Notes: a model not told the origin generated them from the sequence alone. DNA of 64,000 bases from Desulfovibrionales bacterium (GCA_030156255.1 JASGMV010000002.1:62001-126000), one strand, 5' to 3'; numbered from the stretch's first letter, positions 30,983 through 53,734 are shown. A program made the numbers and translations.

Positions 30983-32139
30983 ATCTGAGTGATGCTATCC
31001 TGGAAGCCTTGGTTTCGACGCTTCCCGCTGAAGGGTTCAAACCGTTGCACGAGCCTTGTTTCGAAGGGCGCGAGTGGGAGTACGTCAAGGAGTGCCTGGA
31101 CACGGGGTGGGTCTCCACCGCCGGCAAGTTCGTCGACCGGTTCGAGTCCATGCTGCAGGAGTTCACCGGCGCCCGCCGGGCCGTGGCTGTGGTCAATGGC
31201 ACGGCCGCTCTGCATGCGGCGTTGGCCCTGGCCGGAGTCGAGGCCGGCGATGAGGTGGTGATGCCCGCCCTGACCTTTGTCGCCACGGCCAACGCCGTCG
31301 CCTACATCGGCGCGACGCCGCATTTCGTGGATTGCGAGGAGTCCTCGTTGTCCATGAACTCGGAGTCTCTGGCTGCCAGGTTGGAGGCCGTGGCCGAAAT
31401 CCGGGACGGCGCCTGCGTCAACAAGGAGACCGGACGCCGGATATCGGCCGTGGTCCCGATGCACGCCTTCGGCCATGCCGCGGACTTGGACGGCCTGCTC
31501 GATATTTGTGGCAGGTATGGGCTGGTCATGGTGGAGGACTCCGCCGAGTCCCTGGGTTCGTATTACCGCGGCCGTCACACCGGGCTGTTCGGGCTGATGG
31601 GAATTCTAAGCTTTAATGGCAACAAGACCGTCACCACGGGTGGCGGCGGGGCTATTCTCACCAACGATGAGGCCTTGGCTGACCGGGCCAAGCATGTCAC
31701 CACTACGGCCAAGCTTCCGCACAAGTGGGAGTATGTCCATGATCGGGTAGGATTCAACTACCGGTTGCCGAATATCAACGCGGCGTTGGGTTGCGCGCAG
31801 ATGGAGGTTTTGCCGGACTTTTTGGCCCGCAAGCGCCGTTTGGCCGAAGCCTACGCTCGGGCTTTCGACGCGGTGAACGGGGTGCGTTTCGTCACGGAGC
31901 CCGAGGGGCGTCGCTCCAATTACTGGCTGAACGCGTTGCTGCTGGATGAAGACTTGGCCGACCTGCGCGACGAGGTGCTGGAGAAGACCAACGCGGCCGG
32001 TGTCATGACCCGGCCTGCGTGGACGCTCATGCACCGCTTGGCCATGTATCAAGATTGCCCTCGGGGCGATCTGAGCGTGTCCGAGTCCCTGGAGCGGCGG
32101 TTGATCAACATACCGAGCGGACCGAAGCTGCATGGATAG
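30979..32139 (+). CDS. legC: LegC-family PLP-dependent sugar aminotransferase
   Basis: 386 residues from GTG 30979, overlapping the previous stop. DegT/DnrJ/EryC1 fold: GTAALHAAL, PALTFVATANAV, VMVEDSAESLGSYY and the PLP lysine in SFNGNKTVTTGGGG (Lys216). The opening region (EPCFEGREWEYVKECLDTGWVSTAGKFV) is characteristic of LegC. It aminates C4 of a 4-keto-6-deoxy-HexNAc nucleotide sugar on the way to legionaminic acid. It overlaps the LegG gene by eight bases. Confidence 0.88.
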   Translation: MNLSDAILEALVSTLPAEGFKPLHEPCFEGREWEYVKECLDTGWVSTAGKFVDRFESMLQEFTGARRAVAVVNGTAALHAALALAGVEAGDEVVMPALTFVATANAVAYIGATPHFVDCEESSLSMNSESLAARLEAVAEIRDGACVNKETGRRISAVVPMHAFGHAADLDGLLDICGRYGLVMVEDSAESLGSYYRGRHTGLFGLMGILSFNGNKTVTTGGGGAILTNDEALADRAKHVTTTAKLPHKWEYVHDRVGFNYRLPNINAALGCAQMEVLPDFLARKRRLAEAYARAFDAVNGVRFVTEPEGRRSNYWLNALLLDEDLADLRDEVLEKTNAAGVMTRPAWTLMHRLAMYQDCPRGDLSVSESLERRLINIPSGPKLHG

Positions 32140-33295
32140 CAAGCGAAGGCTTTGCATCGTTACCGGCTCCCGGGCGGAGTGGGGTCTGTTGTCGCCTGTC
32201 GCCGACGCGTTACGGGCCAGCGGCGCCTTCCTCGTGGACGTTGTGGCGACAGGCATGCATCTTTCTCCTGAATTTGGAATGACGGCGGCTAGCATCCAGC
32301 AGGATGGCTATGAGCTTGCGGAAAAGGTGGAAATGCTTTTGTCTAGCGACTCTGGAGTCGGTGTCGCCAAATCCGTAGGCCTGGGCGTTATCGGATTTTC
32401 GGACGCCCTGGCTCGTCTTTCTCCCGACATGGTGATGGTGTTGGGAGACCGGTTTGAAATCCTGTCCGCGGTTACGGCTGCCTTATTTTTGCGAATTCCC
32501 GTCGCTCATCTCTGCGGGGGGGATGTGACCGAAGGTGCTTTTGATGATTCGATCCGTCATTCGATCACCAAAATGTCTCACGTGCATTTCCCCTCCAACA
32601 AGGACGCCGCCCGGCGAATCATCTGCATGGGCGAGCGGCCGGACCGGGTGTTTGTCGTGGGCAGCCCGGGCGTTGACCACTTGCTGCGTTTGAAACTCAT
32701 GGGGCGTGAGGCTCTTGAGATGGATTTGGGCTTCCAATTCAGGCCCCGCAACATTCTCGCTACGTTTCATCCGGAGACTCTGGCTGACGTCTCTCCCGTC
32801 GATCAGTGTGCTGAATTGTTGGCCGCCATCGAGACGTTGGGGCCGGAGGTGGGCGTCATATTCACGCACCCCAACGCGGACACGCAGGGGCGGGCGCTGC
32901 TGAATATGACGGAAGCGTTTGCGTCTTCTCGGGAGAATGTTCTTGCTCGTTCTTCTCTTGGGCAACTGCGCTACTTGAGCGTGATGAACCTTTGCGATGC
33001 GGTGGTGGGCAACTCGTCCAGCGGACTCTACGAGGCCCCGTCCCTCAAGACGCCGACCGTGAACATCGGCGGCAGGCAGGCGGGCCGGCCAAAGGCCGTC
33101 TCGGTCGTCGATTGTCCAGCGGAAAGAACGGCCATCGTCTCCGCCGTTCGGAAGGCGTTTGATCTTGATTGCTCCGATGTGGTCAACCCGTATGGCGACG
33201 GCGAGGCTTCGGGCCGGATTGTCCGGGTTTTGAGAGAGATGCAAGACTGGCAGTCTTTGCTGTGCAAGGGATTTTACGAGGAGCTTGAGCCATGA
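32132..33295 (+). CDS. legG: Hydrolysing UDP/GDP-sugar 2-epimerase (NeuC/LegG family)
   Basis: 387 residues from ATG 32132. VTGSRAEWGLLSPVADALR, VLGDRFEILSAV, HLCGGDVTEGAFDDSIRHSITKMSHVHF and NSSSGLYEAPSLKTPTVNIGGRQAGR are the NeuC-type signature of the GT-B-like 2-epimerase fold. The enzyme inverts C2 and removes the nucleotide, releasing the 2,4-diacetamido hexose used by the synthase encoded next. Overlaps with both neighbours show strict co-expression. Confidence 0.93.
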   Translation: MDSKRRLCIVTGSRAEWGLLSPVADALRASGAFLVDVVATGMHLSPEFGMTAASIQQDGYELAEKVEMLLSSDSGVGVAKSVGLGVIGFSDALARLSPDMVMVLGDRFEILSAVTAALFLRIPVAHLCGGDVTEGAFDDSIRHSITKMSHVHFPSNKDAARRIICMGERPDRVFVVGSPGVDHLLRLKLMGREALEMDLGFQFRPRNILATFHPETLADVSPVDQCAELLAAIETLGPEVGVIFTHPNADTQGRALLNMTEAFASSRENVLARSSLGQLRYLSVMNLCDAVVGNSSSGLYEAPSLKTPTVNIGGRQAGRPKAVSVVDCPAERTAIVSAVRKAFDLDCSDVVNPYGDGEASGRIVRVLREMQDWQSLLCKGFYEELEP

Positions 33296-34371
33296 ATGGC
33301 GACCATGTCTTCATCATCGCCGAAGCCGGGGTGAACCACAACGGCTCCCTGGACATGGCCATGGATTTGGTCGACGCGGCTCGCGAAGCCGGCGCCGACG
33401 CGGTCAAGTTCCAGACCTTTTCCGCCGCCTCCATCGCCTCCGCCAATGCAGCCAAGGCCGGCTACCAACTCCAGACCACCGACGCCGGGGAATCCCAGCT
33501 GGATATGCTGCGGCGTCTCGAGCTTTCACTGAACGGGCACAAAGCGTTGTACGACCGATGCCGGAAGCTTGGCCTGGAGTTCATGTCCACTCCGTTTGAT
33601 CTTGGCAGCGTGGACCTGTTGATCGAACTCGGCGTGTCCCGGCTCAAGGTTCCGTCCGGAGAGATCACCAACGGGCCGTTGCTGCTCAAAGTCGCCAGGA
33701 CCGGGCTGCCCCTGATCGTGTCCACGGGCATGGCGACCTTGGGTGATGTGGAGGCGTGCTTGGGCGCGCTTGCCTACGGCATGTTGGACGCGGCGGATGC
33801 GCCAGGCGTCGAAGCCTTCGCCCAGGTCTTTGCCTCCGAAGAGGGAGGGAGGCTGCTCCGGGAGCGGGTGACCCTGTTGCATTGCACGACGGAATATCCG
33901 GCGCCCTTGGATGAAGTGAACTTGCGGGCTATGGGTACGTTGTCCTCGGCCTTCGGGCTTCCCGTGGGCTACTCCGACCATACGGAGGGAATCTCCGTGG
34001 CTGTGGCCGCAGCGGCCCGGGGGGCCAGGATTATTGAGAAACATTTCACGTTGGACAAAACGCTGCCCGGCCCGGACCACAAGGCGTCTCTTGAGCCTCG
34101 GGAGTTGGCGGCCATGGTTCAATCCGTGCGCGCGGTGGAGTCGGCCCTGGGCCATGGCCGAAAGGTTTCCGGCGCCGCAGAACTCGGCAACCGTTTCGTG
34201 GTCCGTAAAAGTTTGATCGCGGCGCGCCCCATCGCCAAAGGCGAAGTTTTCAGCGAAGAGAACGTGACGGTCAAGCGTCCCGGAACCGGCGTCTCCCCGA
34301 TGCTTTGGTGGGACTGGCTGGGACGTCCGGCCGATCGTGATTACGTCGTGGACGAGGTGATCGAGTCATGA
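33292..34371 (+). CDS. legI: Nonulosonic acid synthase (NeuB/LegI)
   Basis: 359 residues. A TIM barrel with FIIAEAGVNHNGSLDMAMDL, GADAVKFQTF, EFMSTPFD, TTEYPAP, GYSDHTEG and EKHFTLDKTLPGPDH is followed by a C-terminal SAF antifreeze-like domain (~300-359, RKSLIAARPIAKGEVFSEENV). It condenses a 2,4-diamino hexose with phosphoenolpyruvate. It belongs with the legC/legG genes; a second NeuB-type synthase at 50209 is a fusion. Confidence 0.93.
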   Translation: MNGDHVFIIAEAGVNHNGSLDMAMDLVDAAREAGADAVKFQTFSAASIASANAAKAGYQLQTTDAGESQLDMLRRLELSLNGHKALYDRCRKLGLEFMSTPFDLGSVDLLIELGVSRLKVPSGEITNGPLLLKVARTGLPLIVSTGMATLGDVEACLGALAYGMLDAADAPGVEAFAQVFASEEGGRLLRERVTLLHCTTEYPAPLDEVNLRAMGTLSSAFGLPVGYSDHTEGISVAVAAAARGARIIEKHFTLDKTLPGPDHKASLEPRELAAMVQSVRAVESALGHGRKVSGAAELGNRFVVRKSLIAARPIAKGEVFSEENVTVKRPGTGVSPMLWWDWLGRPADRDYVVDEVIES

Positions 34372-35006
34372 ACCCGCCGGTGATCGTCATCGGAGCGGGC
34401 GGACACGCCAAGGTGTTGGTGGACGCGCTGTTGCTGGCCGGCGTCCAAGTCCTCGGCCTGCTGGATCGCGACCCGGCCATGGCCGGCCGCGACGTTTTGG
34501 GCGTTCCGGTTCTGGGCGGGGAGGACAAGCTTGTGCAGTACGCGCCGGACCAAGTGGCGTTGGTCAACGCCGTGGGGTCCGTGGACAGCATGCAGGCCCG
34601 CAAAACGGTGTACGACCGCTTGCGCGGGCAAGGCTATGGGCTCGCCCCAGTGGTTCATCCTCAGGCCGTGGTTTCGAAGTTCGCTGAAATTCAGCCCGGC
34701 GTCCAGATTCTCGCTGGCGCCGTCGTCGGGCCGGGCGCCGTGATCGGAGAGAACGCCATCATCAACACCAAGGCGTCCGTGGACCACGACTGCCGCATAG
34801 GAGCGCACACGCACATCGCTCCCGGCGCCACGCTGTCCGGGGGCGTCGTGGTTGGCGAGTCGAGCCATGTCGGTACGGGCGCAAGCGCCATTCAAGGAAT
34901 CCGCATTGGTCGGGATTGCCTGGTCGCGGCCGGGGCCGTGGTGGTCCGGGACGTCCCGGACGGCGCCAAGGTCCGGGGAGCGCCGGCCAGGGAGTGGGGC
35001 GCATGA
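34368..35006 (+). CDS. legH: Hexapeptide-repeat sugar N-acetyltransferase (NeuD/PglD/LegH type)
   Basis: 212 residues. A Rossmann-like pre-domain VIVIGAGGHAKVLVDALL (1-60) is followed by a left-handed beta helix with repeated hexapeptides (VGPGAVIGENAIINTKASVDHDCRIGAHTHIAPGA, shortened here in function to the catalytic His in VDHDC) and the closing VRGAPAREW. It would transfer acetyl from acetyl-CoA to the C4 amine made by LegC. Overlaps of four bases link it to both flanking genes. NeuD-type O-acetylation is the alternative. Confidence 0.85.
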   Translation: MNPPVIVIGAGGHAKVLVDALLLAGVQVLGLLDRDPAMAGRDVLGVPVLGGEDKLVQYAPDQVALVNAVGSVDSMQARKTVYDRLRGQGYGLAPVVHPQAVVSKFAEIQPGVQILAGAVVGPGAVIGENAIINTKASVDHDCRIGAHTHIAPGATLSGGVVVGESSHVGTGASAIQGIRIGRDCLVAAGAVVVRDVPDGAKVRGAPAREWGA

Positions 35007-36064
35007 AGGATTGGAGTAAAACGCTGATAGGGCCCGAAGCTCCCATCATCGAGGCTTTGCGCATCATTTCCAAAGGCGCTTTGCAGATCGCCTTGGTGGT
35101 GGACGAAGACAAGCGGTTGCTGGGGACGGTGACCGACGGCGATGTGCGTGCGTGGCTGTTGGAGGGGAAAAGTCTACAAGAGCCTGCGTCTGCGATTATG
35201 GCCGCCAGTCCGATCGTCGCCAGAGTCGAAGATTCGGAAGCTGAGATGCTCAGGCTGATGAGGGCCAAGGACATCCTGCAGATTCCCGTCGTCGATGCGC
35301 AGGGCCGCCTTGCTGGGCTCCGATTGCTCAAAGAAATGGTCCGCGTTCCGGAGCGGGAAAACCTGGTGGTGCTCATGGCTGGAGGCTTGGGTTCCAGGCT
35401 TGGGCCGCTTACCGAGAAGTGCCCAAAACCACTACTGAAAGTTGGCTCCAAACCGATTTTGGAGACCATTCTGACGAACTTCGTGAATCAGGGATTTAAA
35501 AAATTTTATATTTCAGTCAATTACATGGCTGAGGCTTTTGAAAACCATTTTCGGGACGGCTCCCGCTGGGGCGTAAAGGTTGATTATTTGCGCGAAGACA
35601 AGCGGCTGGGAACGGCCGGGGCGCTGAGCCTGTTGCCGGCGCCGCCGGATTCACCGTTTTTCGTCATGAATGGCGATATCCTGACGAATATTGATTTCAG
35701 ACGATTGTTGGAGTTTCATGAGGCGTCCGGCGCCGAGGCCACCATGTGCGTGCGGGAGTATGAGCAACAGATCCCTTACGGCGTGATTCGATCCCTGGAC
35801 GGCCGACTGCTCGGCATCGAGGAAAAACCGACGACGACCTATCACGTGAATGCCGGCATCTACATGCTGAACGCTTCTTGCCTGGATTGCATACCGGAAG
35901 GTGAATTTTTCGACATGACGGATTTGTTTTCCAAGCTTATCGCTCTGGGGCGGAAGGCCATGATCTTTCCCGTCACCGATTACTGGATCGATATCGGGAG
36001 AATGGAAGACCTTAAAAGGGCTCATGGCGAGTACTGCGATAACTTTATGAACGGTGGAGTGTAA
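35003..36064 (+). CDS. CBS-domain sugar nucleotidyltransferase (PtmE-like)
   Basis: 353 residues from ATG 35003 (ATGA overlap); a longer frame upstream is an artefact. Two CBS motifs (~8-120) precede a nucleotidyltransferase with VLMAGGLGSRLGPLTEKCPKPLLKVG and VMNGDILTNIDF. This fusion is that of Campylobacter PtmE, the glucosamine-1-phosphate guanylyltransferase of the GDP-sugar route to legionaminic acid. GDP, not UDP, intermediates are therefore likely here. The CBS pair may sense adenine nucleotides. Confidence 0.85.
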   Translation: MKDWSKTLIGPEAPIIEALRIISKGALQIALVVDEDKRLLGTVTDGDVRAWLLEGKSLQEPASAIMAASPIVARVEDSEAEMLRLMRAKDILQIPVVDAQGRLAGLRLLKEMVRVPERENLVVLMAGGLGSRLGPLTEKCPKPLLKVGSKPILETILTNFVNQGFKKFYISVNYMAEAFENHFRDGSRWGVKVDYLREDKRLGTAGALSLLPAPPDSPFFVMNGDILTNIDFRRLLEFHEASGAEATMCVREYEQQIPYGVIRSLDGRLLGIEEKPTTTYHVNAGIYMLNASCLDCIPEGEFFDMTDLFSKLIALGRKAMIFPVTDYWIDIGRMEDLKRAHGEYCDNFMNGGV

Positions 36065-36068
36065 GATC

Positions 36069-37238
36069 GTGAGCGAGACGTTTCGTTTCCAATTGATGAC
36101 GGATATGCGTTTCGGCTGTGGCTGGTCCAGAGGGCTTGGCGAATTTTTGTCGGAGCGCGGACTGAAGCGCATCGCGGTATTGGCCGATGAAGGCTGCGCC
36201 AGCCATGCAAAATACTTCCCTGAGATTGTCTCTTTGCTGGAGGCGGCGCTGGAACGAGTGGAAGTGCTGCAGCTTCGCGGAAGCGAGGAGCCGGACTACG
36301 ACTACCTTGACAGCGTGGCCGACAAGGTCAAGGCCTTGGGCGAGATGGACGCGTTGGTGGGAATTGGCGGCGGGTCCTGCCTGGACATCACCAAGACCGT
36401 CGCCGTCCTTTTGACCAACCCGGGCCAAGGGATCGAGTATCGCGGTTTCGACAACGTGAAGGTCCCCGGCGTCCCGACGGTGTGTATCCCGACCACGGCC
36501 GGCACGGGCTCCGAGGTGACCATCAACGCCGTGTTCACGGATAAGAAGGAAATGAAGAAACTCGGCGTCAACGGCCGATACATGAACGCGACCTACGCCG
36601 TGCTCGACGCCGAGTGGACCATGAGCTGCCCACAAAGCGTGGCCGTGTCGTCGGGACTGGACGCTATGACGCATACCTTGGAGAGCTTTACCTGCAAGCA
36701 GCACAACGCAATGACTCGGTCCCTGAGCCGGGAGGCGTTCAAGATTTTATATGAAAACCTGCCATGCCTTGTGGAGGAGCCGGAGAATGCGGATCGCCGT
36801 CAGCAACTGCTGCTGGGCAGCTATCTGGCCGCTTCCGCGCTGTTCAATTCCGGATCGGGGATCGCGGGGGCGCTGTCCTACCCCATCGGTGTGCATTTCC
36901 ACGTGCCCCACGGCATTGGCGGCGGAATTTTCCTGGCGTCCGTGGCCCGGTTCAATGTGGAGCGGGGGTACACGGATTACGCCGAGCTGCTGGACATGGT
37001 CGAGCCGCATCCTGATTGGACGGCGGAGCAAAAGAGCAAACGCTTCGTCGAGGCCCTGCAAGCCCTCGCCGACCGCCTGGGCGCGCCGCGTACGCTGGAG
37101 CAGTGGGGGATCAGCAAGGACAACGTTGAAGACGTGGCGAAATTGATGCATCCCTTGCAGGGCGCCTTTGACCAGAATCCGATTTCGTTTGATGCGAAGA
37201 CGGATGCGCTGGCGATGCTAAAGGAGCATGTAGCATGA
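36069..37238 (+). CDS. Iron-containing alcohol dehydrogenase, possible KdnB-like sugar oxidase
   Basis: About 389 residues from GTG 36069, chosen because GGAG is nine bases upstream; GTG 36054 is the longest option. Group III metal ADH: GIGGGSCLDITKTVAVLLTNPG, IPTTAGTGSEVTINAVF and the metal-binding histidines in GLDAMTHTLESF and HVPHGIGGG. The TNPG, YRGFDNVKVP and KLGVN features resemble KdnB, the Kdo 8-oxidase of Shewanella, from memory of that sequence. With the KdnA-like gene at 44092 it may make an amino-ulosonic acid. Substrate is not proven. Confidence 0.75.
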   Translation: MSETFRFQLMTDMRFGCGWSRGLGEFLSERGLKRIAVLADEGCASHAKYFPEIVSLLEAALERVEVLQLRGSEEPDYDYLDSVADKVKALGEMDALVGIGGGSCLDITKTVAVLLTNPGQGIEYRGFDNVKVPGVPTVCIPTTAGTGSEVTINAVFTDKKEMKKLGVNGRYMNATYAVLDAEWTMSCPQSVAVSSGLDAMTHTLESFTCKQHNAMTRSLSREAFKILYENLPCLVEEPENADRRQQLLLGSYLAASALFNSGSGIAGALSYPIGVHFHVPHGIGGGIFLASVARFNVERGYTDYAELLDMVEPHPDWTAEQKSKRFVEALQALADRLGAPRTLEQWGISKDNVEDVAKLMHPLQGAFDQNPISFDAKTDALAMLKEHVA

Positions 37239-37885
37239 CCGGCAAGAAGTACGATTCTTGTACGGAATACTGGATGAATCCTCAGGATTGCACTTTTCGA
37301 GGTGAATTTGAACAGATGTATCAGGAGATTGAAGATCCATGGGGATGTCAGGCGGGAGCATTATCCCTGCACAACAAGATGTTCCTAGATATTCTGTTCG
37401 ATGGTTGTTGCTATAAAAATATTCTGGATGTTGGATGTGGAACCGGCGGTTTTACCAAGCAGCTATTTGAACGAAACAACGGTGGAGCAGTGTGCGGGTG
37501 TGATATTTCCGCTACAGCAGTGCAAAAGGCAAAAAATTTGTATTCGCAAATAGATTTCAGGCAACTCAATATCTTGGATGCGAATGATAACGAATTTGGT
37601 CCTTTTGATATGATCATTTGTTCTGAGATTTTGTGGTATATCTTGGACGGGTTAGAGGCGACATACTCGAAAATGGTTAGTTGGTTGACTTCGGCAGGCA
37701 AGCTCGGCGTGCATCAATTCTTCCCGTCTTGCCAGAATTTTGGCAAGTGTGCGCTGGATGGTCTTAAAGGTTTCGATGCGTTCATAGCGTCTTCCACCTG
37801 TTTGAGCTATGAGCGGAAAGTTGTGAGTTACACGGATGACGGGATGGTCTTACTTGCGACCTTCGTGAAAAAGGACGGGAAGTAG
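37235..37885 (+). CDS. Class I SAM-dependent methyltransferase
   Basis: 216 residues; the ATG overlaps the previous stop. ILDVGCGTGGFTKQLF is motif I and GCDISATAV motif II, with FDMIICSEILWYILDG as motif IV. From here codon use and base composition become strongly AT-rich, which marks the start of the cassette. The acceptor, sugar or otherwise, is unknown. No membrane segment. Confidence 0.82.
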   Translation: MTGKKYDSCTEYWMNPQDCTFRGEFEQMYQEIEDPWGCQAGALSLHNKMFLDILFDGCCYKNILDVGCGTGGFTKQLFERNNGGAVCGCDISATAVQKAKNLYSQIDFRQLNILDANDNEFGPFDMIICSEILWYILDGLEATYSKMVSWLTSAGKLGVHQFFPSCQNFGKCALDGLKGFDAFIASSTCLSYERKVVSYTDDGMVLLATFVKKDGK

Positions 37886-37888
37886 GAT

Positions 37889-39067
37889 ATGGCGAACCGA
37901 TCCATCGTGCTTCTGGTTGAAAACCCTTTTACGCAACGCGATTATGAACGTTTTGGGATTGATATTTTTTTAAAGCGTGGATACCGGGTTAAAATTTTAC
38001 AGGTTACGCCCATTACGAAGCCTCATGTACACCGTTTTGTGGGGTTCAAAAAAATTTGTGATTTTCATTGTATCGTTAATACCTTGCAGCAGTTCCAAAA
38101 TGTTATTGAGAAGAATAAAAATAGTATCGTTATTTCCTTTGTGCAGTATGGACTACTCTCTTTTTGTTTGTTTAGAATGTTGAGTAAATATAATATAAGA
38201 TTATGTGTCTTGGCTTTTTCTGGACCATTTTTCAGCATCAAAGGAAAAGGAAAATGGCTATTTCGGCTGCAAAGAATTTCTATAAGAAACATTATAGATT
38301 ATCTGTTTCGGTATATAAAGCCATGCTGGCTGAATATTAAAGACGCTGATATATGTTTGGTGTTGGGTGGTCAAAGATATGTTGCCCAGGAGCCAATTGG
38401 AGCAGCAACCAAGATAATCTATGGGCATGCTTTTGATTATGACCTTTTCTTAAAGAGAAAGCTGCCGAGTGGTGATCTTAAAGAAAATATTGCAGTATTT
38501 TTAGATGAATATGCACCATACCATCCAGATGATGTCAACGCTGGCGTTACCTCTATTGATGCAACAACATATTATGGCAGGCTGAACAATTTTTTTAACA
38601 AGTTGGAGCAAGAGACTGGCTTACAGGTAGTAGTCGCTGCTCATCCTCGGTCTGACTATGAACTTCACGGGAATGTGTTTGGAAAGCGCAGATTGGAGAA
38701 AGGACAAACCATTGATTTGATTGCTCAGGCCAAGCTTGTCGTCGCTCACATGTCAACCGCGGTCAACTTTGCTATTTTAATGAAGAAGCCAATTCTTTTG
38801 TTCGCAACTGAAGAATTTATGGCGGCCAACGAATGCTTTGTTTTGGCGCTTGCTCAGGCACTGGGAAAAAAGGTTTATGATGCCGAAGATCAAAAGATAA
38901 ATTTTGAAGAAGAAATGAGCATTGACTATGATATTTATGAATTTTACAAAAAAAAATATATTTCTGTACAAAACGATTGTGTAAAAAATTCTTGGGAAAT
39001 TTTATGTGATACCCTGGAAATGAAGATTGACAATGCGGAGAAAATTAATGAGATCCAGTGTAAATAG
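37889..39067 (+). CDS. Unassigned transferase-like surface-glycan protein
   Basis: 392 residues from ATG 37889. No family is recognised with certainty. The C-terminal half has features of GT-B-type or capsule polymer transferases: VVVAAHPRSDYE, then AKLVVAHMSTAVNFAILMKKPILLFAT, where a His-Ser/Thr pair and a following hydrophobic helix resemble nucleotide-sugar-binding loops. The N-terminal half is hydrophobic in places (FVQYGLLSFCLFRML). Strongly AT-rich. Comparable unassigned proteins are encoded at 48270 and 59976. Confidence 0.65.
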   Translation: MANRSIVLLVENPFTQRDYERFGIDIFLKRGYRVKILQVTPITKPHVHRFVGFKKICDFHCIVNTLQQFQNVIEKNKNSIVISFVQYGLLSFCLFRMLSKYNIRLCVLAFSGPFFSIKGKGKWLFRLQRISIRNIIDYLFRYIKPCWLNIKDADICLVLGGQRYVAQEPIGAATKIIYGHAFDYDLFLKRKLPSGDLKENIAVFLDEYAPYHPDDVNAGVTSIDATTYYGRLNNFFNKLEQETGLQVVVAAHPRSDYELHGNVFGKRRLEKGQTIDLIAQAKLVVAHMSTAVNFAILMKKPILLFATEEFMAANECFVLALAQALGKKVYDAEDQKINFEEEMSIDYDIYEFYKKKYISVQNDCVKNSWEILCDTLEMKIDNAEKINEIQCK

Positions 39068-40400
39068 CGAAAAAATTTTTTTTACTGCTGATATCTTGAG
39101 CGAAATTGAATGTCGATCTCTAGCAGATGTTTTGTGTTCGTCATTTGATTTGCTTATGCAACAGTTGCGTTATGCCTTAAAAAATAGCCTATTTTACCAA
39201 AAAAAATTCAAAACCATTGATTTTCGAACCAAGAACTTTAGTTTAGATGCATTTCGAAGTTTACCATTTACTGAGAAAAGTGAGCTTCTTGTAGATCAAG
39301 AGGCGTTTCCTCCTTTTGGGAGTAATCTTTGTGTAGATTTAGCTTCCGTTGTCAGAGTGCATAAGACTTCCGGGACCACGGGGCGACCACTGATCATCGC
39401 ATTGACGGACGAAGACCTTCGCTGGACAAAGCTTGCTGGCGGGCGTTGTTTTTATTCGGCCGGGCTGCGTTCAAGTGATCTTGTTTTTCATTGTTTAAAT
39501 TTTTGTATGTGGGCAGGAGGACTCACTGATTGCCTTAGTTTGGAAAATGTTGGGGCGAGTGTCGTTCCTTTTGGGGTGGGTAATTCTAAGAATCTTATTG
39601 AAATGATGTTATTGTTGAAGCCTTCTGCAATCCATTGCACTCCCTCATATTTATCGAAATTAGAACAATTGCTGCACGAAGATTATTCTCTCAAGCCAGA
39701 ACAGCTTGGTTTAAAGCTTGGTCTCTTTGGTGCAGAGGGGGGACTCGAAGATGCGCACTATAGAAGCAAAATAGAACAAACTTGGGGCATAAGAGCAATA
39801 AACGCCAATTATGGCATGGCCGATGTCCTTGCCACTTTTGGCGCTGAATGTAGCCAACGCGATGGTTTGCATTTTATGGGGCAACATATTCTTTATCCTG
39901 AACTTATTGATCCTCAGCGCATGACTCCTCGTCCAATTGTCGAGGGCGCTGTTGGAGAGCTTGTTCTGACCAATCTATGCAAACAGGCTCAACCGCTCAT
40001 CCGTTATCGAACCCGTGACATCATCGAGGTTATTGCTACCGGCCCATGTTCCTGTGGAAGAGGCGGCATGCGGTTTAGAATTTTGGGGCGCAGCGATGAT
40101 ATGTTCGTTGTGAAAGGTGTTAATGTCTTTCCGAGCACAGTGTCTCACGTTATACGATCCATGCCTGATGTGTTAAGCGGTGAGTATCAAATTTATATTG
40201 ATAAAAATCAACCAATAAAAAAAATGCTTATCAAGCTTGAGTTGAGTGCTGGAGTCCAACTTGTTGAAAGTTTACAGCAAAGAGTAACAACTGCTTTGGC
40301 GTCTAAATTGTCTTTTCATCCTGCCATTGAATTTCTTCCTGCAGGAAGTTTGCCACGAACTGCCGAGAAAACAAAACATGTTTTCAAGCTGCTAGATTAA
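39048..40400 (+). CDS. PaaK-like adenylate-forming ligase
   Basis: 450 residues from ATG 39048, which follows GGAG by eight bases and overlaps the previous gene by 20. The AMP-binding P-loop HKTSGTTGRP lies near 106-114. NANYGMADVLATFGAECSQ, LIRYRTRD, GRSDDMFVVKGVNVFPS and a cysteine pair CSCGRGG match phenylacetate-CoA ligase relatives. It activates a carboxylic acid as the adenylate, then as a thioester. Phenylacetate degradation genes are absent and the glycan context suggests activation of an acyl or amino-acid decoration. No carrier protein gene is adjacent. Confidence 0.82.
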   Translation: MRSSVNSEKIFFTADILSEIECRSLADVLCSSFDLLMQQLRYALKNSLFYQKKFKTIDFRTKNFSLDAFRSLPFTEKSELLVDQEAFPPFGSNLCVDLASVVRVHKTSGTTGRPLIIALTDEDLRWTKLAGGRCFYSAGLRSSDLVFHCLNFCMWAGGLTDCLSLENVGASVVPFGVGNSKNLIEMMLLLKPSAIHCTPSYLSKLEQLLHEDYSLKPEQLGLKLGLFGAEGGLEDAHYRSKIEQTWGIRAINANYGMADVLATFGAECSQRDGLHFMGQHILYPELIDPQRMTPRPIVEGAVGELVLTNLCKQAQPLIRYRTRDIIEVIATGPCSCGRGGMRFRILGRSDDMFVVKGVNVFPSTVSHVIRSMPDVLSGEYQIYIDKNQPIKKMLIKLELSAGVQLVESLQQRVTTALASKLSFHPAIEFLPAGSLPRTAEKTKHVFKLLD

Positions 40401-40502
40401 TATTGTTTTTGTTGAAAAGTTATTTTTTTTACTTTTTAGTGTCGCATTTTAGATTGTGGATGAATGGCATTTTGTGTAATTTATTTTTAATGCGAGGGTG
40501 TT
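40401..40502. other. AT-rich spacer ahead of the radical SAM gene
   Basis: Only about 100 bases, but it is the largest gap in the cassette and very T-rich (a run of eight Ts near 40422-40430). It could hold an internal promoter. GAGGGTGTT directly before ATG 40503 is the ribosome binding site. Confidence 0.35.
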
Positions 40503-41591
40503 ATGGAACGTTTGAAGCACCGTAAAGAAAAAATCACTCCTTTTTTGAAGTCAAAGTTTGAATTTTTAAAAACAAAATATGGAGAACAGCATCCATATTA
40601 CAAAGGATTATCTTTACAATATTTTGTGTCTGATCAGAATACGGATGAAAAATTTGTATTGACTAATCTTAAGCATTATGAGGCAGGCGTTCATATTGCA
40701 GAAGAGCATGGATTTATTCCTGGATTGGAGCGTTTATATCGGAGGACTCTTGTTATAGAGCCTACTTTGGTGTGCTCTGCTCATTGTCAATTTTGCTTGC
40801 GGCAAAACTATACGCAGCACACGTTAAGCGATGAATTATTAGTCGACGTAGCGAAGTATTGTGGTGATTCGAAAAATAGAGACATTCTTAATGAAGTTCT
40901 AATTACTGGCGGGGATCCCTTGTTAATTCCTGCTAAATTAGAATTTTTAATTAATGCGCTCATCAGGTATGCTCCTAATATACGAATTATCCGTATCGGG
41001 TCACGCATTATGACGCAATGCCCGGAAAAATTTGATGCTTCAGTGTTTTCGATTTTTTCCGGCAAGTCTGATGTTCGTTTCGAGTTGGGGACTCAACTCA
41101 ACCATCCGGTTGAATTTTTTCCTGAGGCAGGTGAAATATTCGACCGTGTAAACGAGTTGGGGATTAAAATTTATGCGCAAAATGTCTTGCTGCGTGGAGT
41201 TAATGATGATCTAGAAACCTTGGTCGCCTTATATGAGCTTATGCGGCGCTATAATATTGAATCACATTATTTGTTTCATTGTTGTCCAATTGTTGGCATG
41301 CAGCATTTACGACCTTCGATTGAGAAAAGTTTGGCTTTAGTGCGTGGTTTGAGCATGGGAGGAAAAATTTCCGGCCGTGCAAAACCAATGTTTGCCGCGA
41401 TGACGGATATTGGGAAGATTCTTTTTTATGAGGGCACCATCATTAAGAAAAAAGGGGGCCTCTTATTGCTTCGCAGCGGCTACAAATTGAGTGAGCGAAC
41501 CGATTGGAATCCTTCATATGAAGCGCCTGCTTCTGCACAGGTTGATGAGAATGGTTTTTTAACTGTATGGTATGCTGACGGGGTGGAGTAG
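40503..41591 (+). CDS. KamA-family radical SAM enzyme, probable amino-acid 2,3-aminomutase of new specificity
   Basis: 362 residues. The radical SAM cluster is Cys91, Cys95 and Cys98 (CSAHCQFC). ITGGDPLL, RIIRIGSR, LNHPVEF, QNVLLRGVNDD and SGRAKPMF...GKI match lysine 2,3-aminomutase (KAM) region by region; Lys305 aligns with the PLP lysine. By eye, the two aspartates that hold the lysine side chain in Clostridium KAM (D293, D330) align with Cys261 and Ala298 here, so lysine is an unlikely substrate. The protein is shorter than KAM, lacking its C-terminal zinc region. It would give a beta-amino acid for the neighbouring ligase. Confidence 0.85.
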   Translation: MERLKHRKEKITPFLKSKFEFLKTKYGEQHPYYKGLSLQYFVSDQNTDEKFVLTNLKHYEAGVHIAEEHGFIPGLERLYRRTLVIEPTLVCSAHCQFCLRQNYTQHTLSDELLVDVAKYCGDSKNRDILNEVLITGGDPLLIPAKLEFLINALIRYAPNIRIIRIGSRIMTQCPEKFDASVFSIFSGKSDVRFELGTQLNHPVEFFPEAGEIFDRVNELGIKIYAQNVLLRGVNDDLETLVALYELMRRYNIESHYLFHCCPIVGMQHLRPSIEKSLALVRGLSMGGKISGRAKPMFAAMTDIGKILFYEGTIIKKKGGLLLLRSGYKLSERTDWNPSYEAPASAQVDENGFLTVWYADGVE

Positions 41592-41596
41592 TGGCT

Positions 41597-42703
41597 ATGC
41601 AGTATCAATTTGAATTTCTTGAACTAGAGCAGCTTGGGCAGCTGCAGCGTATTTTATACGATTTCTTTGGGGAAAATTATTATGGAGCGCATGTAGATTA
41701 TTTTAACTGGCAATATCGAGATTCTTTGTTTAGCGAATCTGTTGCTGGGGCGAATAGATATACTGTTTTTGTTGCCAGAGAAGATGATAGAATATTAGCC
41801 TTGGATGCTTTTTTACCATGGAAGACCTATATACGAAAAGAGCCTATCCAAACAATGTGGGATATCGAATGGATAAATACCTCTGATATTAAAGGGATAG
41901 GGCGTAAATTGGTTGCCGAACTTCGCTCTCATTTTGAAATGTATTGCGGTTACGGATTGAATGCGCATTCCACCACTGCTTATGGCAAGTTAGGATTTCG
42001 CATCAATGATTCAATTGAGCGAATGGTCGCAATTCTTGATGCAGAACGCTGTATTGAGGAGTTTGGGGTTATAAACGATGCAGAAAAAGTTTCTTTTTAC
42101 AAAGACAATCAAGCCCAATATGCGCAGTCTTCCTGGGATATCCTTACTTCTGTTGCAGAAATCAGCGAAGCTTATTGGGAAGATGCATTGTCTAATTTCT
42201 GCTGCATTTCTTACAAAGGGCCTCGATATTTAGATTGGAGGTATTTAAGGCATCCATTTTTAAAATATCATCTGATTTCTCTTGATTCAAGGGGAAAGAG
42301 CGGTATAGCCGCTGTGCGACTGGAGCAGATTCGAGGTCGCAATGCTATTGTGCTCAGGATATTGGACTTCTTACCATGCTCTGGAAAAGAAAAAGAGCTT
42401 GCAGTTGCTGTTTGCGCCTTTGGTCGAAAGCATCGGGCTATATTAGCGGATTTTTTTTGTGCTTCTTCTCGATATGCTCAACAATTGCTTACAGTTCCTT
42501 TTTTGCCTTTGTCTTTTCATTCTCTCTATGAGGTCCCGATGCTTTTTCAACCGTTAGAAGTTCGTAAGCGTAAGAGCATCAATATGGTTTGGGATTTTCA
42601 AAAGCATTTTGGTGAACTTGGTTTCGATGACTTTTACGCCACTAAAGCGGATGGTGATCAGGATGTTTTCATTAATCCCGAATACAGCACGGTATCATTC
42701 TGA
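41597..42703 (+). CDS. GNAT-like acyltransferase, possibly duplicated fold
   Basis: About 368 residues from ATG 41597, favoured by GGAG eight bases upstream; GTG 41591 overlaps the previous stop. VDYFNWQYRDS, VFVAREDDRILALDAFLPW and NAHSTTAYGKLGFR resemble the N-terminal GNAT domain of polysaccharide-locus acetyltransferases, and PRYLDWRYLRHPFLKYHLI begins a second, similar half, so a double GNAT or FemAB-like fold is likely. It would transfer an acyl or aminoacyl group from the ligase product. AT-rich. Confidence 0.65.
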   Translation: MQYQFEFLELEQLGQLQRILYDFFGENYYGAHVDYFNWQYRDSLFSESVAGANRYTVFVAREDDRILALDAFLPWKTYIRKEPIQTMWDIEWINTSDIKGIGRKLVAELRSHFEMYCGYGLNAHSTTAYGKLGFRINDSIERMVAILDAERCIEEFGVINDAEKVSFYKDNQAQYAQSSWDILTSVAEISEAYWEDALSNFCCISYKGPRYLDWRYLRHPFLKYHLISLDSRGKSGIAAVRLEQIRGRNAIVLRILDFLPCSGKEKELAVAVCAFGRKHRAILADFFCASSRYAQQLLTVPFLPLSFHSLYEVPMLFQPLEVRKRKSINMVWDFQKHFGELGFDDFYATKADGDQDVFINPEYSTVSF

Positions 42704-44067
42704 TGGATAGTAACTTGGTGTTAGTTGTTCACTGCGTAGACACCGAAGGTCCACTTTATGAGTCAACTGCTGCAACTTTCGAGCGCCTCGAAAAAACGTT
42801 TGGCGTGAGATTAAAGCCGACGCTGGAGCAACTCGACCGTTTAAAACAAGGTCTGGACCTTGAGCCTTCGGTGCGATCTTCCGTAATGGATTTTTTGTCC
42901 GACGACCGCTTGAACTACAACCGCTCTTGGGCTGATGTTGACGCCATGCTGCGCGACATGATGCGCCCCGAATGGCGGTTGCAATACTCTGATGATTTTG
43001 GAAATGGTTACGCATTCAACTGGTTTATTCTTGATCATGTTGGCTTTGAAATCAATCCTCGGCAAAGAGCTTTAGGCTATCATGCCGTTTATGAACACTA
43101 TCTTGAGTTTTTGCAAGAGTATGCTCCTCCTATGGATCGGCTATATTGGCATAATCATCCTGTCTCTTTTTTTCATGAAGCCCATAAAACTTCCAATAAT
43201 TTCAGTTATACGAATCATCATGTGCAAGTCCTGAGTCGCAGGGTCATCGATTACCTCGATTTTCCCGTAGCTTATAGACCTGGTTGTCATTGCGAACGGC
43301 CCGATATCAATCTTTTTTTGGAGATGTGGATACCGTTCGATTACGGCAACCAAGGTATGCCTGAGCGGGCGGAAGATCGTGCGCAAAAGGATGTTTCCGG
43401 TGGTCGATATGGAGATTGGCGCCGGGCGACTTCAGAATGGGAGGTTTATCACCCTGATTTTTATGATTATCAGTCGAAGGGTGGCATGAAGCGGCATGTT
43501 GCACGCTGTCTGAATTTAAACTCTAGGCTTCGCCCTGTCACTGAAGAAGAAATTACCAAGGCTTTTGCGAGGGCTTCCTCCGGCAAGCCGACCATCTTGT
43601 CCGTGACGAACCATGATGAACGTGAGATGAGACCGTATATTGCCCAATTTATGGGTGATGTCCGAAACGTTCAGAAAAAGTTTCCTGACGTTAAGATACG
43701 GCATGCGAACGCTGTGGACGCGATACGTCTTGCGGAAGGTTTGGTGCGGAAAGACCCCGTGAATCTTTCTTTTTCTTGGGATGGACCTCGCCTCGATGTT
43801 AAAACAAATTCATCAATTTGGGGACCGCAGCCCTGGTTATGCTTTAAGACACACGATAAACGGTACATTCATGAGAATTTTGATTTCCAGGAGCCAGGCG
43901 AGTCTTGGAGCTATGTTTTCGATGAAGACACCATCCAATTGGATCAAGTTGAATGCATTGGTGTGGCGACAAATGATGACTATGGAAACACTTCTGTCTA
44001 TCGGCTATATCCTGACCGGAATCTAGATAAGACGGAAGTTATGCATCGTAATGAGCCAGTGTTATAA
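42703..44067 (+). CDS. Polysaccharide deacetylase-like protein of unknown substrate
   Basis: 454 residues; start and previous stop overlap (TGATG). VLVVHCVDTEGPL at the N-terminus, LYWHNHPVSFFHE, YRPGCHCERPDINLFLEMWIPFDYGNQ and TNHDERE recall the Asp/His metal site of NodB-type deacetylases, but the match is loose. A C-terminal beta-rich part (~350-454) may be a separate domain. It is the last AT-rich gene; composition returns toward GC-rich across it. An N-deacetylase would expose an amine for acylation, which is inference. Confidence 0.5.
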   Translation: MDSNLVLVVHCVDTEGPLYESTAATFERLEKTFGVRLKPTLEQLDRLKQGLDLEPSVRSSVMDFLSDDRLNYNRSWADVDAMLRDMMRPEWRLQYSDDFGNGYAFNWFILDHVGFEINPRQRALGYHAVYEHYLEFLQEYAPPMDRLYWHNHPVSFFHEAHKTSNNFSYTNHHVQVLSRRVIDYLDFPVAYRPGCHCERPDINLFLEMWIPFDYGNQGMPERAEDRAQKDVSGGRYGDWRRATSEWEVYHPDFYDYQSKGGMKRHVARCLNLNSRLRPVTEEEITKAFARASSGKPTILSVTNHDEREMRPYIAQFMGDVRNVQKKFPDVKIRHANAVDAIRLAEGLVRKDPVNLSFSWDGPRLDVKTNSSIWGPQPWLCFKTHDKRYIHENFDFQEPGESWSYVFDEDTIQLDQVECIGVATNDDYGNTSVYRLYPDRNLDKTEVMHRNEPVL

Positions 44068-44091
44068 CAATCTATTTTGTGGAGTGCTCCC

Positions 44092-45264
44092 ATGCCCGGT
44101 TTTGAAGTGTTCGGCGAAGAAGAACGCCAAGCGATCAATGATATTTTTGACAAGAACGGCGGCATCCTGTTTGCGCATGGCTTTGACGCCATGCGCAACG
44201 GTGTCTATCGCGTGCGCGAGTTTGAGGCCGCCGTCTGCAAGAAATTTAATGTGAAATATGCTCAGGCCGTCGCCTCCTGCACGGCGGCGCTGCGCATCGC
44301 TCTGGCCGCTGCCGGCGTGGGGCGAGGAGACGAGGTCATCATCCCGGCCTTTACCTTTGTGGCCACGGCCGAGGCCGTGATCCAGACCGGAGCCGACCTT
44401 GTCATTGTCGATATCGACGAGTCCTTCAACATGGATCCGGATGCGTTCGAAGCGGCCATCACCGACCGCACCAAGCTCGTCATGCCCGTTCACATGATGG
44501 GCGCTCCGGCAGACATGGACCGCATTCCGGCGATCGCCGCCAAGCGCGGCGTGATGGTCATCGAGGACAGCGCACAGGGCGTGGGCGGAACTTGGCGCGG
44601 CAAGCATCTTGGAACTATCGGCGCCATGGGCTGCTACTCCTTCGACGCGGGCAAGGTCATGATCACCGGCGAGGGCGGCATGACCATCACCAACGACGAG
44701 TCCCTGTTCGTCAAGGCCCGGGCCTACCATGACCACGGCCACGAGTATTCCACCACTGTCGGCCGCGGAGCGGAAGGGGCCATCGGCGAAGGCTTCAACT
44801 ATCGCATGACCGAGCTGCAAGGCGCTATCGGCATTGTCCAGCTCGGAAAATTGGATATGATTGTTGAAACGCAGCGCGCTAACAAAGCCAAACTCAAGGC
44901 GTTGCTCGACGACGGCGGATTCCCGTTTAGATATCGCAAGATTCTGGATGAGGGAGAGCTGGGCGACGCGTTGATTTTCTTCCTTGAAAGCCGCGACCAA
45001 ACCCAGGCGTTTCTCGCGGGCATGCAACAGGAAGGCTTGGGCACCAAGAATATTCCTGACGCCATTCGTTGGCATTTCGCCAAACACTGGTCCCACATGT
45101 TTGAGAAGTACGGTTGGTACCGTGATTCCTACGCGACCCTGTGGTCGCGTTCCGCCGATATTCTGGAGCAGTCGGTCGCCGTCCCAATCATGATCAAGAT
45201 GACCGATGCGCGTATTGAGGAGGTAGCGGCGAAGCTTTTGAAGATCGCCAAGGACGTTGCATAG
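44092..45264 (+). CDS. DegT/DnrJ-family aminotransferase, KdnA-like
   Basis: 390 residues from ATG 44092 behind GGAG (44082-44085); a TTG five codons earlier is less likely. MPGFEVFGEEE, the HGFDAMRNG stretch, VMVIEDSAQGVGG, GCYSFDAGKVMITGEGG with PLP Lys188, and HDHGHEYSTTVGRGAE resemble KdnA, which puts the 8-amino group on Kdo in Shewanella, as I recall that sequence. Its partner there, KdnB, is an iron ADH, as at 36069 here. The substrate could equally be another ulosonic acid or nucleotide sugar. GC-rich, unlike the preceding genes. Confidence 0.8.
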   Translation: MPGFEVFGEEERQAINDIFDKNGGILFAHGFDAMRNGVYRVREFEAAVCKKFNVKYAQAVASCTAALRIALAAAGVGRGDEVIIPAFTFVATAEAVIQTGADLVIVDIDESFNMDPDAFEAAITDRTKLVMPVHMMGAPADMDRIPAIAAKRGVMVIEDSAQGVGGTWRGKHLGTIGAMGCYSFDAGKVMITGEGGMTITNDESLFVKARAYHDHGHEYSTTVGRGAEGAIGEGFNYRMTELQGAIGIVQLGKLDMIVETQRANKAKLKALLDDGGFPFRYRKILDEGELGDALIFFLESRDQTQAFLAGMQQEGLGTKNIPDAIRWHFAKHWSHMFEKYGWYRDSYATLWSRSADILEQSVAVPIMIKMTDARIEEVAAKLLKIAKDVA

Positions 45265-48269: not shown

Positions 48270-50216
48270 ATGAGTACGATACCGGATGCTTCACCCAAGC
48301 GTATCAATTATTTTCTTATTGAGCGCTTGTCACTGTTTCTTTTGGTTCTAGCTTTCATTTTGCGTTGCATGGGGTGGGTCGTTTACTATGCAAACCTCAG
48401 CCCAGTGTTTCGATTCCATTGCCTAAAGCATTTGATCAGATGGGGTGGGCTGCGTGCATTAGACTTGGGTAAAATGGAAATATTGGAGGCTGACAAAGTC
48501 TTTACGGATGGTTTAAACTTCATACCAACCGCAGTTAACGATTTTATGGAGCAATCAAAGGTTTTTTCCTTAGTTGAGGACGCCTGTTTCGGCGTCAAAG
48601 AGGGAGGAAAATCGCTTAAGACGGCTCTATATGCCCAGGCGACGCGGCGGTATCACATAGTTTACTACTTTTTGCTACTTTTGAGATCCGCTCCAATAAA
48701 GCCGCGTTTTGTTTTAACGTATATTTATCGTGATATTTATGTGTCGAACTACCTACGGCATATTGAGGCGCCTGTTCTCAATATTGCTCCAAGTTTTTGG
48801 TCCATCAAGCTTTGGGAATGCGGCGCGAGGACGCTCAAGGGAGCGCCTTCAAAAATCTGTCGTCGTTTTTTTCGGCAGCCTTCGATAAACAAACTTGAAG
48901 ATGTCGCAAGACGGGTGCCTGACACGTATAAGACGCTATACTTCCCGCACCAATCAATTTTTTACGGTCAGCTTTTCGCCAAGGATCATTTTTATTCCGA
49001 GAGGCAAGACTCATTGCTGCATTCCAGTAATATCCTTCATGTGGAGTTCAGACCTTCATCATGCCCGAATGAGCATTTAGAAAAGCAAAAGGAAATGAAT
49101 CTTGAGACGTATACATTGAATGGACTTGGCGTGAAGGTTATTTTTTTTAGTATGACTGAATTTTTTCATTTTCTGTGGCAACATCGGAAGCAGCTTTTGA
49201 ACGCCTCTGCGAAGCGATCGCTATGCATGCAGCTTCTTATATTATATATTGAATTCAGACACTATGTCAAAGAAGTACTCCCTATAGAAAAAAACGCGCA
49301 GCTTGCCATTGTGGGCTATGACATGCTTTTGCCTGCCGGCTTAGCGCTGGCTCTCAAGTCGCTTGGGATACAAACTGTCGCTACGCAGGAAAGGCTGTAT
49401 CCGGTATTCCAGGCTCCATATTGTTCCGTTATCTTAGATCATTATCTGGTTGCAAGCAACTTTGTTAAGGACAGACTTGCTGCGGCGCCGAATTTTTGTG
49501 TAAATAATGTAATTTCTGTTGGAATGGTTCGAACTGATCTTTTGCACCGATATTCTTCTTTGCATAGAGATATGACGTGTTTCAAAAAATCGTCGAGCGT
49601 TATCGTTACAGTGCTTGACTTCCATTCAGAGAAGAATGCTGATGCACAACGTCTATGTCCTGTCAACAACTGGACGGCAAATAAAAATTTTTATTTTGAT
49701 GTCATTCAATTAGCAAAATTTTTCAATGAATTACATATTACGATACGCGGCAAGGATGACGCTTGGCTCCATTTGGAGTATTTTCAGGATGTAAAGCAAG
49801 TCATTCAATCGTTGCCCAATGTGGAGGTGAGCCGAGAATACGGGATGCTCAATGAGTCCTATCGGCTATGCGCAAATTCGGATTTGGTCATAGCGAAGCA
49901 CACATCCTTGGCGGATGAATGCCTGGCGGTCGGTAAGCAAGTTTTGATTCACGATTATACACACAATTCACGTTCTTTGTTGAGCGCCAGTTTTGACTAT
50001 TTTGGCGCTCCTTTTTTCTGCCACAGCTTCGAAGAATTGAGGTGTGGGGTGCAACGCTATTTAGATACTGGGTGTGTTATGGACCCAAAGCAGTATGAGG
50101 CCATTCGCAGCCGTGTTTTCGAAGGGCGAGCCGACGGCAAGGTGCGACAACGGGTTCAGCAAGTTATTTTAGATATACTCCAGGGCGACTCTGCTCCCGG
50201 AAGTGCTGATGCATAA
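48270..50216 (+). CDS. Large unassigned transferase-like surface-glycan protein
   Basis: 648 residues, AT-rich against pseF and the GNAT-PseI gene on either side, so probably acquired separately. An N-terminal hydrophobic segment (LSLFLLVLAFILRCMGWVVYY) may be a membrane anchor. The C-terminal half has ISVGMVRTDLL, VIVTVLDFHSEK, LHITIRGKDD and ANSDLVIAKHTSLADECLAVGKQVLIHDY, reminiscent of GT-B or CDP-glycerophosphotransferase-like folds in capsule loci. I do not recognise a family. It lies where pseG might be expected, but no PseG motif is visible. It may transfer pseudaminic acid. Confidence 0.6.
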   Translation: MSTIPDASPKRINYFLIERLSLFLLVLAFILRCMGWVVYYANLSPVFRFHCLKHLIRWGGLRALDLGKMEILEADKVFTDGLNFIPTAVNDFMEQSKVFSLVEDACFGVKEGGKSLKTALYAQATRRYHIVYYFLLLLRSAPIKPRFVLTYIYRDIYVSNYLRHIEAPVLNIAPSFWSIKLWECGARTLKGAPSKICRRFFRQPSINKLEDVARRVPDTYKTLYFPHQSIFYGQLFAKDHFYSERQDSLLHSSNILHVEFRPSSCPNEHLEKQKEMNLETYTLNGLGVKVIFFSMTEFFHFLWQHRKQLLNASAKRSLCMQLLILYIEFRHYVKEVLPIEKNAQLAIVGYDMLLPAGLALALKSLGIQTVATQERLYPVFQAPYCSVILDHYLVASNFVKDRLAAAPNFCVNNVISVGMVRTDLLHRYSSLHRDMTCFKKSSSVIVTVLDFHSEKNADAQRLCPVNNWTANKNFYFDVIQLAKFFNELHITIRGKDDAWLHLEYFQDVKQVIQSLPNVEVSREYGMLNESYRLCANSDLVIAKHTSLADECLAVGKQVLIHDYTHNSRSLLSASFDYFGAPFFCHSFEELRCGVQRYLDTGCVMDPKQYEAIRSRVFEGRADGKVRQRVQQVILDILQGDSAPGSADA

Positions 50217-53209: not shown

Positions 53210-53734
53210 ATGCTCGATAAGCTATTCACTTCCAAGACCCGGATCAAGCTGCTCTTGAAGTTGTTCTTGAATCCCGAGGTTTCATCCTATTTACGCGAAC
53301 TTTCAAGCGAATTTTCCTTGTCGCCCAACGCCCTCAAGGAGGAGCTGGATGGGCTGTCCGGGGCCGGCTATCTTGAGAAGAAGAAGAAGGGGCGGTACAT
53401 CTATTACAAGGCCAACACAAAGCATCCCTTTTTCCCCGAGATCAGCTCCATCGTGCGCAAGCATATGGGGATCGACCGCCTTATTGACGAGATCGTGAAC
53501 CATATCGGCAAGGTGGAGGAGGCTTATCTCCTGGACGATTACGCCCAGGGGGTTGATTCCGGACTGATCGACGTGCTTATTGTCGGCGAGGTGGACATTA
53601 CCAAGGTGTTGGAGGTCTGCCGGCCCATAGAAAAAAAATTATCCCGCAAGATACGGCCGATGGTGATGACCTCGGAAGAGCTTGCAGCCAACCGGGGAAT
53701 TTTGGATAAGCGGCCGCATTGGAAAATTATCTGA
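53210..53734 (+). CDS. Winged-helix transcriptional regulator with degenerate nucleotidyltransferase-like domain
   Basis: 174 residues from ATG 53210. Residues ~1-75 form an ArsR/MarR-type winged helix (LRELSSEFSLSPNALKEELDGLSGAGYLEKKKKGRYIYYKAN). Residues ~95-165 (AYLLDDYAQGVDSGLIDVLIVGEVD) look like an MNT nucleotidyltransferase fold, but without the Gly-Ser and paired Asp of active enzymes. Proteins of this layout are common in polysaccharide loci. It is the only regulator in the glycan region and is preceded by the 26-bp element, so it may bind that element and autoregulate. Confidence 0.82.
   Translation: MLDKLFTSKTRIKLLLKLFLNPEVSSYLRELSSEFSLSPNALKEELDGLSGAGYLEKKKKGRYIYYKANTKHPFFPEISSIVRKHMGIDRLIDEIVNHIGKVEEAYLLDDYAQGVDSGLIDVLIVGEVDITKVLEVCRPIEKKLSRKIRPMVMTSEELAANRGILDKRPHWKII

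Follow-up and report, generated by a model that had tools for sequence, protein, structure and literature searches.

A putative pathway for beta-amino-acylation of surface sugars that pairs a distinct clade of KamA-type radical SAM enzymes with a PaaK-type ligase

In lysine 2,3-aminomutase (KamA/AblA), cysteines bind the cluster, Arg134 binds the substrate carboxylate and Lys337 holds PLP, and two further residues, Asp293 and Asp330, bind the epsilon-amine of lysine. A related enzyme, BlsG, is the arginine 2,3-aminomutase of blasticidin S synthesis, where the beta-amino acid that it makes is finally joined to an amino sugar through an amide bond. The adenylate-forming ligases of the PaaK type usually act on non-amino acids. 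On the side of the glycans, amino sugars often carry N-linked alpha-amino acids, and the simple N-linked amino acids of bacterial glycans covered in one review are alpha-amino acids (PMC10609480). The nearest described product is found in E. coli O161, where D-alanyl is present on N-7 of legionaminic acid (Leg5Ac7-D-alanyl); the amino acid is amide-linked to the nonulosonate nitrogen as in the structure proposed below, but it is an alpha-amino acid (PMC10609480).

The window analysed here is a stretch of 64,000 nucleotides from the draft genome (3.84 Mb) of a Desulfovibrionales bacterium. It carries an AT-rich block of six consecutive plus-strand ORFs (37235-44067) that sits inside a locus of the legionaminic/pseudaminic nonulosonate type. 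We propose, with a probability of roughly 0.68, that this block makes and attaches a beta-amino-acyl group during the synthesis of a nonulosonate-type or related amino sugar of a surface glycan, with chemical steps that are predicted from the sequences. The genes of the block and its surroundings are as follows.

29975-36064, plus strand: legB-like, legC, legG/neuC, legI/neuB, legH/neuD and ptmE-like genes (profile matches)
36054-37238, plus strand: iron-containing alcohol dehydrogenase, Fe-ADH (Pfam Fe-ADH; 42% homologue in the Omnitrophica locus L099)
37235-37885, plus strand: SAM-dependent methyltransferase, 216 aa (PF08242 Methyltransf_12, 4.7e-15; GC3 0.50)
37889-39067, plus strand: unassigned transferase, UT (TIGR04331, 2.6e-4; homologue in L099)
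39048-40400, plus strand: PaaK-type adenylate-forming ligase (TIGR02155, 236 bits; PF14535, 1.9e-16)
40503-41591, plus strand: KamA-type radical SAM enzyme, 362 aa (TIGR04468, ~122 bits; TIGR00238, 110 bits)
41591-42703, plus strand: GNAT-type acyltransferase, 370 aa, with a C-terminal DGDQD tail (assigned via homologues)
42703-44067, plus strand: DAC, possible NodB-like deacetylase, 454 aa (motifs; homologues in L099 and L050)
44077-45264, plus strand: DegT aminotransferase, directly downstream of the block (profile match)
Downstream of the DegT gene, up to 48213, plus strand: pseB, pseC and pseF (PseB 502, PseC 484 and PseF 322 bits, above cut-off)
50203-51783, plus strand: fused GNAT-NeuB protein, pseH-pseI-like (profile matches)

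The upstream assignments are firm for LegC (548 bits), NeuC (433), NeuB (476) and NeuD (225), all above cut-off; the legB-like gene gives a generic epimerase/dehydratase match, and the ptmE-like gene contains CBS and NTP_transferase domains. The window carries a canonical legH in addition to the GNAT of the block. No pseG homologue was recognised among the scanned genes near the GNAT-NeuB fusion. The block itself resembles a single operon, with most of its junctions overlapping or abutting: the Fe-ADH gene (start 36054) overlaps the methyltransferase start at an ATGA, KamA and GNAT are joined at TAGTG, and GNAT and DAC at TGATGG, while about 100 bases separate PaaK from KamA. The ligase probably starts at the ATG at 39048, in an ORF that is open from a TTG at 39027.

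The original prediction of six consecutive AT-rich genes in a GC-rich locus is borne out by both ORFs and composition. The block has a G+C content of 41.5%, against a mean of 60.9% (SD 2.8%, minimum 49.6%) in 977 windows of its own length taken from 372 kb of the genome. In GC3, four of its genes rank lower than all 238 background ORFs, and the other two stand out less: 14 of the 238 are as low as the methyltransferase and 6 as low as DAC, the last gene. The predicted gene families also stood in large part: methyltransferase, PaaK-type ligase and KamA-type radical SAM enzyme by profile and GNAT through its homologues, with the deacetylase-like assignment lacking a profile match. The block is set into a GC-rich operon, the overlapping Fe-ADH gene upstream being itself GC-rich, and of 395 genomes from the phylum just 3, that of the window among them, have a close KamA; among 99 genomes of sampled relatives the KamA proteins are all distant (best 33-34%). 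Low G+C, the junction within a GC-rich operon and the rarity of close KamAs in relatives fit a horizontal gain of the block. The genome encodes another KamA relative (31%) and another PaaK-type ligase (34%) apart from these, so that the block copies are extra ones. On plasmids no member of the KamA clade was found, the best KamA matches there being 30-36%.

Evidence that the two enzymes belong together comes from their linkage in other bacteria. When about 85,000 species genomes were scanned with an alignment of two KamAs, 14 further loci emerged whose KamA is 41-58% identical over nearly the full length, with ordinary KamAs at <=32%. These loci take in G107 and G380 (L098, L108) and come from Planctomycetota (including Phycisphaerae), Deltaproteobacteria, Omnitrophica, Bacteroidota, Calditrichales, Hydrogenedentota, Firmicutes, Epsilonproteobacteria and Aminicenantes, a spread of about ten phylum-level lineages. 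A PaaK-type ligase (38-53%) is present in all 14, on the same strand and either adjacent to KamA or with one or two genes between. With the window this makes 15 of 15, and the co-occurrence suggested by the original prediction therefore extends beyond this strain. At 66 ordinary KamA loci (1.07 Mb) a ligase match was seen once, and that match was weak and covered 134 residues. The search of the phylum led to the same pairing from the side of the ligase: the one close relative of the ligase, in G107 (51%), has a 53% KamA one gene away, in an apparent operon that also holds two LbH acyltransferases and a PF01522 deacetylase, and close ligases in 247 phylum genomes were those of the window and G107 only, both KamA-linked. 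Since the loci were sampled through KamA, there are few cases from which to judge the reverse linkage, in other words whether such a ligase occurs where KamA is missing. The pairwise distances of KamA and ligase correlate at 0.86 (0 of 9999 permutations), and at 0.40 (127 of 9999) when the Firmicutes/Epsilonproteobacteria group is left out, a pattern that two genes moving as a unit should produce.

Sugar-nucleotide, NeuB or glycosyltransferase genes surround the clade loci (NeuB in 7 of 15), and every one of the 15, the window included, has an acyltransferase nearby, although this is partly expected because glycan loci are rich in acyltransferases. The acyltransferase is of the GNAT type in the window, L097, L099 and L100, an LpxD-like LbH protein in L097, L098, L099, L101, L102, L103, L108, L109 and L144, and of the NeuD type in L104-L107 and L109. 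In L104, L105, L106, L107 and L109 KamA ends within or right at the start of neuD, and in four of these five NeuB follows. The most complete match to the window is L099, with DAC (59%), GNAT (44%), LbH, KamA, PaaK and UT (30%); five of the six window genes are kept in reversed order and the methyltransferase is missing, which argues that the set is conserved and not the order. In L103 a methyltransferase lies between PaaK and KamA.

The ligase shares full-length homology, the TSGTTG motif and the C-terminal domain with PaaK (PDB 4r1l, 2y4o), but differs from it in the acyl-pocket segment, at positions that are invariant in its clade. Where PaaK has GLFTGG, the ligases of the window and G107 have CMWAGG, a segment that presumably lines the phenyl pocket in the PaaK structures. 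The clade signature is M152/W153/T105, with Trp153 invariant and Met near-invariant. An identity as PaaK itself was rejected, since the protein scores 236 bits with the equivalog model of phenylacetate-CoA ligase, whose cut-off is 646; here too the original prediction held up, as a ligase specific for phenylacetate would have spoken against it. A midpoint-rooted tree sets the 15 linked ligases apart from the 28 nearest ligases that lack the linkage.

A different arrangement would place KamA and the ligase in separate branches of one glycan locus, with the ligase activating an ordinary acid such as 3-hydroxybutyrate or an aryl acid. The usual non-amino acid substrates of the family speak for this, and so does 2-hydroxyisobutyryl-CoA synthetase, a solved relative of the ligase; moreover, many N-acyl groups of glycans are hydroxy acids (PMC10609480). 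However, linkage in 15 of 15 loci and matching trees would be unexpected for independent branches, and the unlinked ligases fall outside the linked clade. We therefore regard separate branches as unlikely, and prefer a joint pathway in which the ligase activates the product of the KamA-type enzyme.

The KamA-type enzyme matches none of the characterised subfamilies closely. Its best-scoring NCBIfam model is arginine 2,3-aminomutase (TIGR04468, 122.6 bits, cut-off 600); the lysine 2,3-aminomutase model gives 93.7 bits (TIGR03820, cut-off 525), and the protein also falls below the cut-off of 199 bits for the KamA subfamily as a whole (TIGR00238). An EpmB identity, which would have spoken against the original prediction, was rejected (TIGR03821, 93 bits, cut-off 369). 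In a FastTree analysis of 72 sequences the 15 KamAs form one clade with a support of 1.0, which has a C-terminal extension of its own (WNP...YLDG). Homology to lysine 2,3-aminomutase (PDB 2a5h) is nonetheless clear (E 1e-26), and an alignment to that structure shows the CX3CX2C motif and the equivalents of Arg134 and Lys337 to be invariant in 15 of 15 members. The two lysine-binding residues are both replaced: the Asp293 equivalent is C, V, I or L in all 15, and the Asp330 equivalent is M in all 15. This makes it unlikely that the clade acts on lysine or arginine; its members appear to be functional aminomutases of an amino acid whose side chain is not basic, most likely a small or aliphatic one.

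BlsG provides an instructive comparison. It is 35% identical to the window KamA over 219 residues, and it too adjoins a DegT aminotransferase, together with a carboxylate-amine ligase. BlsG keeps the Asp at the position of lysine 2,3-aminomutase residue 293, whereas the window clade has no acidic residue there; the window ligase is of the PaaK type, and the window is a glycan locus rather than an antibiotic cluster.

These residues and the gene context also bear on whether the pair might instead make a soluble beta-amino acid or derivative, as an osmolyte or a peptide-type metabolite in the manner of N-acetyl-beta-lysine or blasticidin, with no sugar substituent at all. KamA homologues do serve N-acetyl-beta-lysine (PMC11337218), another acts in blasticidin synthesis (the BlsG region), and the arginine enzyme is the best-scoring model. 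The acidic contacts for a lysine- or arginine-type side chain are missing in 15 of 15, however, and the clade loci have the glycan context described above. No ACP-like gene was recognised near the pair by motif search, which also favours CoA as the acyl carrier. We consider a soluble product quite improbable, and a beta-lysine osmolyte in particular was rejected on active-site residues and gene context. Finally, the altered substrate pocket, the C-terminal extension and the low subfamily score might indicate a radical enzyme other than a mutase, such as a lyase or epimerase, with the ligase still activating its product for placement on a sugar, but the invariance of the residues of aminomutase chemistry (cluster Cys, carboxylate Arg, PLP Lys) makes this very doubtful.

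From the gene set and the active-site residues we infer the chemical steps of the preferred beta-amino-acylation pathway, as well as which amino acid is used, which sugar accepts it and what the deacetylase-like protein and the methyltransferase do. The KamA-clade enzyme would act as a radical SAM/PLP 2,3-aminomutase and turn an alpha-amino acid whose side chain is not basic into the beta isomer. From this product and ATP the PaaK-type ligase would form an acyl adenylate and then a CoA thioester, and the GNAT (elsewhere the LpxD-like or NeuD protein) would move the beta-aminoacyl group onto a sugar amino group. The deacetylase-like protein may free the acceptor amine, and the methyltransferase may N-methylate the product; more generally, we propose that it methylates either the amino-acyl group or the sugar. 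In the leg-type loci the single neuD-type gene seen is coupled to KamA, so the group should land on N-7 of a legionaminic-type acid; this placement need not hold for the window, where a canonical legH is present as well. As to the chain of functions originally predicted, its acyltransferase step gained a partner in 15 of 15 loci, and its deacetylase step fared less well, since the pair has a DAC or PF01522 gene next to it in 3 of 15 loci only.

The evidence on the remaining proteins of the block is more varied. UT is probably a GT-B-like glycosyltransferase distantly of the LIC12162 type, judging from its weak match to the LIC12162-transferase model; its L099 homologue (1.3e-44) adjoins PaaK. 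No family profile recognises the GNAT itself (PF13508, E 0.04), but one of its homologues, in G185 (L035), matches PF00583 at 1.9e-6, and comparison with the KamA-linked GNATs by hhalign gives weak support (E 2e-4). A scan of the genome collection with the GNAT as query gave no match. Structural models built from two-sequence alignments were unusable for both GNAT (pLDDT 36) and DAC (pLDDT 42), and a PDB sequence search returned nothing for DAC or UT. DAC matches no Pfam or NCBIfam model, and an hhalign comparison with two PF01522 proteins was negative (0.1%). A NodB-like deacetylase is possible in view of D-T-E, H-x-H, R-x-G and H-D motifs that are conserved in three homologues. The homologues in L099 and L050 (34%) both lie in nonulosonate-type loci; matches in G331 belong to an unrelated binding-protein-like gene and were dismissed as chance. 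The L050 locus (G372) lacks KamA and PaaK and has, by eye, a PseA-like amidotransferase and HisH/HisF-like genes. GNAT homologues also occur without the pair, in L034 and L035, where they lie near PF01522 deacetylases, and this makes a step of deacetylation followed by acylation plausible. A C-terminal tail of the form (A/G)-x-GDQD is common to the GNAT homologues of the window (42650-42700), L034, L035 and L099; a transketolase-like ORF in L034 (about 6934-7431) has it too, which gives the tail the look of an independent module exchanged between proteins.

Taken across the clade, the data make it probable that there is a widespread branch, found in about ten phylum-level lineages, in which the new KamA clade and a dedicated PaaK-type ligase put beta-amino-acyl groups on nonulosonates or other surface amino sugars. 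Amino-acylation of amino sugars is known; what we propose as new is the KamA clade and the beta-amino-acyl version. The original prediction knew of no described glycan pathway with this set, and likewise no paper tying KamA- or PaaK-type genes to such a pathway was found in the open-access literature, a weak absence in that subscription literature lay mostly outside. If the proposal is correct, the pair would be a genetic marker for beta-amino-acyl sugars, and it would extend the radical SAM aminomutases to a new class of substrates and provide NeuD, LpxD-like and GNAT enzymes with a new acyl donor. Because beta-alanyl and alanyl have the same mass, nonulosonates reported as "alanyl" by MS could hide beta-alanyl groups.

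Several other genes of these loci deserve mention. A second AT-rich gene (48270-50216, 648 aa, GC3 0.46) lies between pseF and the GNAT-NeuB fusion of the window; it matches nothing in Pfam or NCBIfam and is possibly another acquired glycosyltransferase. At 53210-53734 the sugar locus contains a candidate for a small ArsR-like regulator (NF033788, 1.1e-5, below cut-off). Lastly, L098, L099 and L105 have in common a gene family near the KamA-PaaK pair, whose member in L099 is a B12-binding radical SAM protein.
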